Below the pieces are notes generated by a model. It was not told the origin of the DNA. It saw only the letters and a program-made list of their open reading frames with translations, and ran no database searches. A DNA stretch of 64,000 bases from Candidatus Nanoarchaeia archaeon. Its GTDB lineage: Archaea > Nanobdellota > Nanobdellia > Woesearchaeales > WJIZ01. The stretch covers positions 1-64,000 of the forward strand of contig JANQND010000019.1 of assembly GCA_028279765.1 (NCBI GenBank), read 5' to 3'. The position numbers and the translations under genes were made by a program. The stretch's first letter is position 1; each line of letters starts with the position of its first letter. Below, one piece after another: positions 13,777 to 57,803 of the stretch.

Positions 13777-13897
13777 TAAATGCGTCGGCCGGAGCTTTTC
13801 GGACACTCGCTCTGCTCGCTCCAAAACCTCGGAAAATCCATTCAAGTGAGATTTCACTTCGCTCAATCTCACGGATTTAGATAAATGCGTCGGCCGG
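13777..13897. repeat. 16-bp direct repeat (taaatgcgtcggccgg) of the tRNA-Gly 3' end, 105 bp apart
   Basis: Identical copies at 13777-13792 and 13882-13897. Confidence 0.85.
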
Positions 13898-14003
13898 GAT
13901 TCGAACCCGGATCAAAGGCTGTCTTTGCGAAAAGCAAAGACCCAGTTGGAGCTTTGCTTCGACGCGTGGAAGGCCTCTATCCTAGCCATTAGACTACCGA
14001 CGC
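13887..14003 (-). tRNA. tRNA-Gly(UCC) with ~46-nt intron at 37/38
   Basis: GCGUCGG/CCGACGC acceptor; GAGGC-CUUCCA|intron|A-GCCUU; CCGGG-UUCGAAU-CCCGG T arm; intron folds as bulge-helix-bulge. Confidence 0.9.
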
Positions 14004-20706: not shown

Positions 20707-20842
20707 AGCGGGGTAGGGCTGCCAGGAGTGCCCGGAGGGCTCATAACCCTCAGATTGTGCAAGTACCCGCTTGCACCAGAGGAAGTCGGAGGTTCAAAAG
20801 ACGGACTCTGTTTGAGTTTTTCGGAAAGTCCTCTCCCCGCTA
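20707..20842 (+). tRNA. Initiator tRNA-Met(CAU) with two apparent non-canonical introns (variable loop and T loop)
   Basis: AGCGGGG/CCCCGCU acceptor with A1-U72; GAGGG-CUCAUAA-CCCUC with three G-C pairs; extra ~31 nt between anticodon stem and T stem; extra ~30 nt in T loop. Confidence 0.8.
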
Positions 20843-21719
20843 TCATGGCGTGGTCTCCTGCCACGCCTTTATTTTCCTTAAATGTTTAGGGTTCCAAAAC
20901 CCTATGTATTTCATCCATTTTTCGAGATTCTTTTTTCCATTTATTTCTATCCTGTTTATTAAGGAATAACCTGATCTAAATCTATTGTCTTCTTGTCGAT
21001 AATTATATACTTCATAGAATGCAAAACCGAGCCTTTTTAGTTCTAGGGAGATTTCCTTTATGAAATCCTTTGAATCCGAGGATGCAGAGATGCAAGGATA
21101 GATTTCCTTTTTCTTGAAAGTTATACAGAAATCAGTATCGGCTACTCCACGAATGAATGGGACTACTAGCTCTTCATCCCGTATTATTTTGGGAATTTTT
21201 AGCTTTCCTTTTTTTGGGCCAATAGGAAGGTCAAATACTCGAGAAAAATATTCAATCAATAACTTAGAATAAATGTAAAATCCATAGGTTTTCCCTGAGT
21301 CCTGAGACTTATTGTTTATTGAGAGATTGAATAGATTCTCAAATAATTTTGATAGGACAATATCATAGAATTTCTTTTCATCCTTTGGATTCCCTACACA
21401 TTTAATTCGATAATCTCCTTTTTCCTTTCGCACAAAAATATTACCATCCCCTGAAAGAACCCCTACTAGATAAGCTAATTCTCTCGATATATTTTTTGGG
21501 ATGGTAATTCTCTTTGACCCTCTTTCTCCTAAAGAGGTTAAGTGGTGAATGGTTTCTTCATATTTCATTTTGATTGGTCAAATAATTGATACTTTGTAAA
21601 TGATTTCTATTTATATAGGCCACACAGGAAAACCTTGTCCAGTGCTAGTGCCTGAATGAAAGAATTATTTGAAAGTTCTCCAATATCCTATTGAAATATG
21701 AGAAATCCTCTCCCCGCTA
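20829..21719. repeat. 14-bp direct repeat (tcctctccccgcta) of tRNA-iMet 3' end flanking the homing endonuclease
   Basis: Copies at 20829-20842 and 21706-21719. Confidence 0.85.
20843..21568 (-). CDS. LAGLIDADG homing endonuclease
   Basis: Two dodecapeptide-like motifs LVGVLSGDGN and FIRGVADTDF; stop codon abuts tRNA 3' end. Confidence 0.85.
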   Translation of the reverse strand: MKYEETIHHLTSLGERGSKRITIPKNISRELAYLVGVLSGDGNIFVRKEKGDYRIKCVGNPKDEKKFYDIVLSKLFENLFNLSINNKSQDSGKTYGFYIYSKLLIEYFSRVFDLPIGPKKGKLKIPKIIRDEELVVPFIRGVADTDFCITFKKKEIYPCISASSDSKDFIKEISLELKRLGFAFYEVYNYRQEDNRFRSGYSLINRIEINGKKNLEKWMKYIGFWNPKHLRKIKAWQETTP

Positions 21720-23011: not shown

Positions 23012-23154
23012 AATCTTTTTAGAGTGCCTATTCTTTTAAAAAAGAGTATGCTGTTTACTCCAAAAAATACGCTGCGAAGAGATCACCACATAAGGGTTTC
23101 ACCCTTTTCAACCCAAGCTTTCTTCGCAAGCTCAGAAAGAATGAAAGAAAAAAC

Positions 23155-23276
23155 GCCGCGGATGGGATTTGAACCCACACGTCCATACGGACACAAGATG
23201 TTTGTGGTATTGTAAGTCTCTAAAGAACTTTCAGCTCTTAGCAATCTTGCGCAATACCAGATTATGCGACCACGGC
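23155..23276 (-). tRNA. tRNA-Ser(GCU) with ~39-nt intron at 37/38
   Basis: GCCGUGG/CCGCGGC acceptor; CAAGA-UUGCUA|intron|A-UCUUG; long variable arm; GUGGG-UUCAAAU-CCCAU T arm. Confidence 0.88.
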
Positions 23277-57656: not shown

Positions 57657-57803
57657 GGGGACGTAGCTCAGCCTGGGAGAGCACTAGTTTGCTTCGGCAA
57701 GGTGATACTGAAGTTCCAGGTTAAGTCCTAAGATCTGTTGAGGCAAAAAGCCGATGAAAGATCAGAGATCTAGGAGTCCCGGGTTCAAATCCCGGCGTCC
57801 CCA
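57657..57803 (+). tRNA. Intron-containing tRNA, isotype unresolved (~74 extra nt in the anticodon arm)
   Basis: GGGGACG/CGUCCCC acceptor, GCUC...GAGC D arm, CCGGG-UUCAAAU-CCCGG T arm, discriminator A; upstream GTTTATAAATG. Confidence 0.75.

Follow-up and report, generated by a model that had tools for sequence, protein, structure and literature searches.

Structure of the tRNA-iMet locus

The window, by which the whole 64-kb stretch of DNA analyzed here is meant, comes from a Woesearchaeales (DPANN) genome of 1.5 Mb; relatives in its family carry the names Candidatus Woesearchaeota or Nanoarchaeota in their deposited records. At 20707-20842 it carries an initiator tRNA gene (iMet) with two introns, which is followed by an antisense homing endonuclease gene (HEG) and, beyond the latter, by a second copy of the tRNA 3' end. 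The introns were recognized against the iMet of G004 (locus L004), a family member whose gene has none. The features of the locus are the following:

20707..20753, plus strand: exon 1 of tRNA-iMet(CAT), containing the acceptor 5' strand, the D-arm and the anticodon arm (ARAGORN tRNA-Met on the spliced 75-mer)
20754..20784, plus strand: variable-region intron, 31 nt, missing in L004
20785..20798, plus strand: exon 2, GTCGGAGGTTCAAA, containing the T-stem 5' strand and the T-loop
20799..20828, plus strand: T-loop intron, 30 nt (manual bulge-helix-bulge, BHB, model)
20829..20842, plus strand: exon 3, the first tail
20843..21568, minus strand: LAGLIDADG endonuclease gene with two motifs, 241 aa (Pfam LAGLIDADG_3, AlphaFold2, Foldseek)
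21610..21617, minus strand: TATA box of the endonuclease gene, TATATAAA (from the sequence and its placement relative to the upstream motif)
21636..21644, minus strand: CACTGGACA motif, some 22-27 nt ahead of the TATA box
21703..21719, plus strand: second tail, AAATCCTCTCCCCGCTA, a displaced tRNA 3' end that is continuous from exon to exon

Removal of both introns gave a 75-nt molecule that ARAGORN called as tRNA-Met(CAT). The unspliced gene was missed by both ARAGORN and Rfam because of its introns. Exon 1 and the intronless L004 gene share 98% identity from position -3 to 46. The site and the ends (AT...AGAGGAA) of the variable-region intron are identical in L003, L106, L116 and L007.

Excision of the T-loop intron gives back TTCAAAT at the junctions, and a bulge-helix-bulge could be modelled there. 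The T-stem pairs 20788-20792 with 20830-20834, and the H helix pairs 20793-20796 with 20823-20826 through three of four possible pairs and one A.G mismatch. The bulges, AA|A and AG|U, are 3 nt each, and the hairpin (20800-20822) has 9-nt arms. As modelled, the BHB of the window is nearly canonical, the related introns L084 and L106 giving a better fit to the canonical form, and its sequence indicates that the intron is likely to be spliceable. Three more tRNA genes of the window, at 13886-14003 (-), 23154-23276 (-) and 57657-57803 (+), are 118-147 nt long and are therefore probably intron-bearing.

The antisense endonuclease gene

The initial annotation had placed a homing endonuclease antisense between the two tails, with its stop codon touching the tRNA and a TATA-like box near 21610. 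The analysis agreed on each point. The reading frame matched Pfam LAGLIDADG_3 (PF14528) with an E value of 8.5e-8 and 32.8 bits, against a curated cut-off of 22.5, its stop codon begins one base past the end of the tRNA, and the box was found as TTTATATA at 21610-21617. The single chain contains two acidic motifs, G40-D41-G42 and D144-T145-D146, that are invariant in 31 sequences. The AlphaFold2 prediction for the 241-aa protein had a pLDDT of 95.7, and a Foldseek search with the predicted structure returned, as the nearest solved structures, I-Tsp061I and I-DmoI (probability 1.0) as well as the archaeal intein nuclease TliVMA; on this model the protein has the LAGLIDADG fold. Since dS was saturated between the homologues, dN/dS was dropped and pS (0.74-0.91) and pN (0.15-0.37) are quoted, values at which the genes look to be under constraint.

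The exact 9-mer CACTGGACA was present, about 22 nt ahead of the TATA box and sometimes in tandem, in 54 of 97 HEG upstream regions, with one copy elsewhere in those loci. It occurs once with the TATA spacing in the genome of the window; in relatives, copies were also seen ahead of genes for a RadC-like protein, a tyrosine recombinase and a RecB-like nuclease. Its distribution suggests that it is possibly a common regulatory site.

Sequence and origin of the second tail

The tail repeat described in the initial annotation was recovered: TCCTCTCCCCGCTA is present at 20829-20842 and again at 21706-21719. The two copies were compared over 17 nt, as AAGTCCTCTCCCCGCTA (from 20826) and AAATCCTCTCCCCGCTA (from 21703). 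When up to three mismatches were allowed, these were the only two matches in the 64-kb window, where 0.19 were expected and 0 of 100 shuffles reached two. The 14-mer with up to one mismatch was found in the same two places only across the 1.5-Mb genome. The match is not a chance occurrence.

When the spliced exons up to GGAGGTTC were joined to the second tail, the mature tRNA was reproduced exactly (75/75). The first tail reads AAAG|TCC over the end of the intron while the second reads AAATCC; an unbroken match to the spliced tRNA is obtained with the second tail and not with the first. Continuity across the T-loop splice junction means that the second tail was derived from a tRNA without the T-loop intron. 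Read in this way, its sequence is that of the old 3' exon of a T-loop-intronless gene, which would have been displaced when the T-loop intron, a new tail and the HEG entered together.

Related loci carry comparable copies. At the iMet locus L005 (G001), the intron lies between the T-stem and the T-loop (54/55), and the second tail (877-897) starts at that point, aligning with L004 positions 54-74 with one mismatch, which breaks the acceptor stem. The tRNA-Thr-UGU locus L055, which has its intron at the same place as L005, has an exact second tail of 20 nt. Comparison of the window, L005 and L055 therefore shows that the second copy starts at the intron site or no more than three bases away; the starts follow the position of the intron. 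At L243, probably a tRNA-Arg-UCU gene, the second tail (19/19) follows a GTGAAAG that has the look of a T-loop intron end, as though an older intron-bearing tail had been displaced. At most HEG loci, a second tail was not detectable.

The initial annotation had predicted that relatives without the endonuclease would lack the second copy. This was the case for the family members L004 and L007, but 7 of 116 HEG-less iMets, none of them from the family of the window, do have one, 68-114 nt downstream (L088, L082, L115, L130, L131, L136 and L161). No upstream and no inverted tail copies were found among 135 iMets. With second tails at 2 of 14 iMets with an HEG and at 7 of 116 without (p=0.25), tail duplication was rejected as a statistical marker of the HEG, and the occurrence of short-range duplications in HEG-less iMets means that duplication alone is not diagnostic. 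The second tail of L115 is a plain tandem duplication. In L088 the active tRNA is intronless, and an apparent old T-arm with a T-loop intron, like that of its congener L089, lies downstream, an arrangement that suggests loss of the intron through a replacement of like kind. The HEG-less second tails may be relics left by loss of the HEG or products of HEG-independent repair.

Association of the endonuclease gene with T-arm introns

The association was evaluated in 135 iMet loci across the order, found by sequence pattern. An antisense HEG lies directly 3' of 14 of them, spanning seven families; 13 were found by script and L091 was added by eye because its reading frame continues through the tRNA. 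A T-arm intron is present in all 14 HEG-adjacent iMets compared with 21 of the 121 others (Fisher p 6e-10, a value that ignores phylogeny), and none of the 66 wholly intronless iMets has an HEG beside it. Within the family of the window, a T-arm intron and an antisense HEG directly after iMet occur together in G001, G002 and G003 and are both absent from G004 and G005. In at least six iMet loci with an HEG (L012, L013, L017, L020, L024 and L039), the T-arm is intact and the introns lie in other parts of the tRNA; their target would therefore have to differ.

Of the 14 iMet HEGs, three are incomplete and a fourth is interrupted by a stop codon (L069, L080, L158 and L186). These, together with the 21 T-arm introns that lack an HEG, are as expected in a cycle of gain, decay and loss. 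Behind the HEG-less T-arm introns, no convincing HEG remnants were detected beyond the partial copies already counted.

In a tree of 44 HEGs, the iMet-linked genes cluster together (84/97). The HEGs associated with T-loop-type introns (window, L003 and L042) form a clade (96/98.8) that spans two host families, and a single clade of the four HEGs from the family of the window was rejected (AU p=0.0008). Thus, the HEG follows the type of intron and not the descent of the host. The congeneric iMet loci L022/L070 (G016) and L021/L069 (G014) have related HEGs, and only one of the two pairs has extra anticodon-arm and T-loop introns, a difference pointing to a recent gain or loss. A clean empty site was not found in any near-identical strain; the congeners G043/G044 and G113/G127 share downstream genes only and offer no usable breakpoint.

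Proposed homing of the intron by an external endonuclease

The segment from about 20799 to 21702 is probably a homing unit, in which a BHB tRNA intron is homed by an endonuclease gene located outside the intron. The unit would consist of the small T-loop intron, the antisense LAGLIDADG gene and a new 3' exon for the tRNA. Cleavage by the endonuclease would most likely fall in the T-arm of tRNA-iMet genes that lack introns, and repair of the break would copy in the intron, the new 3' exon and the endonuclease gene. As the intron would ruin the recognition site, the new allele would be immune, and removal of the intron by the tRNA splicing endonuclease, which the BHB leads us to expect, would keep the tRNA functional. 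The 3' exon of the recipient would be shifted to the far side, where its sequence identifies it as the second tail. More speculatively, the second tail may act as the right homology arm in the next transfer.

Two indirect observations would be compatible with a nuclease target at the intron site: the position at which the second tail starts, and the co-occurrence of the HEG and T-arm introns. Of the earlier idea of a mobile unit that targets and regenerates the tRNA 3' end, mobility and regeneration of the tail are supported; it is the T-arm site of the intron, and not the 3' end as such, that is probably targeted, and the T-loop intron would form part of the unit. A mobile intron with an internal HEG, of the I-DmoI type, was also considered and rejected, for the HEG (20843-21568) lies outside the T-loop intron (20799-20828), as it does in L003, L005, L006 and others.

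Another reading, proposed in the initial annotation, would have a T-loop intron of 0.9 kb contain the endonuclease gene and end at the second tail as its true 3' exon, so that two alternative 3' exons exist. Endonuclease genes can reside in archaeal introns, the second tail perfectly completes the tRNA sequence, and L243 is ambiguous, the GTGAAAG before its second tail resembling an intron end. However, the second tail has no BHB partner, as the H helix before 21703 is missing (GAGA opposite UUCA), which makes such splicing highly improbable, whereas the nearly canonical 30-nt intron has the needed base pairs. The proposal is further contradicted by the acceptor-stem mutation in the second tail of L005, by the missing 3' half of the intron at the second tails of L005 and L055, and by the antisense orientation of the endonuclease gene. 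A BHB-like pairing of the 5' exon with 21668-21681 (TTTGAAAGTTCTCC) does not lie at the second tail and is probably due to chance.

Direct repeats of a tRNA 3' end, such as are present here, are the classic mark of tRNA-targeting integration, and an element of the tyrosine recombinase type could have left them as att repeats, with the endonuclease gene as leftover cargo and the intron unrelated. An integrase origin has been proposed for a comparable layout (Sugahara et al. 2012, PMC3293823). We regard this explanation as very unlikely for the window, where no other long ORF, and hence no integrase gene, was found between the repeats. The endonuclease gene alone is the conserved tRNA neighbor at about 100 loci, the second-tail starts track the position of the intron, and the HEG co-occurs with the T-arm intron. 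Finally, tRNA 3' ends may be prone to short direct duplication by repair slippage, the HEG having landed between the copies or made the break without any defined unit. The HEG-less second tails, all downstream and in direct orientation, are consistent with slippage, as are the plain duplication in L115 and the arrangement in L088, where an old T-arm with its intron persists beyond an intronless one. Slippage leaves unexplained, however, why every HEG-adjacent iMet in the sample has a T-arm intron and why the HEG lineage follows the intron type, and it is considered unlikely as the origin of the locus.

Relation to known systems

A 1.8-kb insertion in the tRNA-Thr(GGU) of Caldiarchaeum was read as a mobile element, and an origin from a pNOB8-type integrase was proposed (Sugahara et al. 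2012, PMC3293823). It shares with the window the gain of an intron at a noncanonical position, an ORF adjoining the tRNA and a repeated tRNA fragment. However, the repeated fragment is from the 5' part of the tRNA and the ORF, on the same strand, was called a recombinase, whereas the window has a 3' tail and an antisense LAGLIDADG nuclease, in DPANN and at many loci. The intron transposition described for Thermoproteales (Fujishima et al. 2010, as cited in PMC4033280 and PMC4090602) likewise spread BHB introns among tRNA genes at noncanonical positions; in the citing accounts no enzyme is identified, whereas in the window the intron-bearing tRNA gene has a nuclease gene tied to it. How tRNA introns transpose was stated to be unknown in a 2014 review (PMC4090602).

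I-DmoI and I-Tsp061I resemble the endonuclease of the window in their monomeric two-motif LAGLIDADG fold and in their link to archaeal BHB introns, but they are encoded within introns of rRNA genes, while the HEG of the window lies outside the intron and antisense to the tRNA. In collaborative homing (reviewed in PMC3984707), the endonuclease gene is also outside the intron and its target would be the intron insertion site; that process involves group I introns and free-standing endonucleases in phage protein genes, in contrast to the BHB tRNA introns, archaeal chromosome and tail duplication seen here. The literature search, confined to open-access papers, found no description of a pairing between HEGs and tRNA introns in DPANN.

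Endonuclease genes beside other tRNAs

Of 353 genomes from the order, 222 contain the HEG family, which also occurs in other orders of the class. Signals of a tRNA A- or B-box were detected no more than about 250 bp from the 3' end of the HEG at 88 of 100 distinct loci, and both boxes at 40 loci on the 3' side versus 1 of 94 on the 5' side. When anticodon-loop introns were permitted, ARAGORN found a tRNA at 55 of 100 loci on the 3' side versus 6 of 94 on the 5' side. The arrangement of HEG and tRNA is real and recurrent. It is convergent in most loci and co-directional in some. In L010, L017, L020, L021, L038, L050, L055, L056 and L057, the HEG ends within the tRNA, its stop codon falling in the T-loop, and an antisense reading frame spans the whole tRNA in L036. 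The tRNAs that neighbor the non-iMet HEGs L026, L028 and L060 are apparently intronless. Viral contigs gave only distant matches (no more than 33% identity), mostly inside very long ORFs, and no viral carrier was found.

More tentatively, and with slightly less than even confidence, these loci may represent a large, ongoing mobile system in DPANN, in which many LAGLIDADG lineages, each tied to a given tRNA and intron position and touching the tRNA from outside, would spread tiny BHB introns by using the duplicated tail as a portable homology arm. If true, this system would be the missing DNA-level mechanism for the gain of archaeal tRNA introns. The iMet locus and about 100 similar loci tie the presence of an intron to a specific nuclease gene, with the displaced tail as a readable footprint of insertion, so that the origin and spread of archaeal tRNA introns, an open question since large-scale intron transposition was described, are now made testable. 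The locus would also illustrate that selfish DNA can reside in an essential single-copy gene such as that for initiator tRNA, provided that it supplies a replacement 3' exon. A second HEG of the family is present in the genome of the window (L309, G000:C13:22687-23304); its reading frame extends, co-directionally, into an intron-bearing tRNA-Arg.
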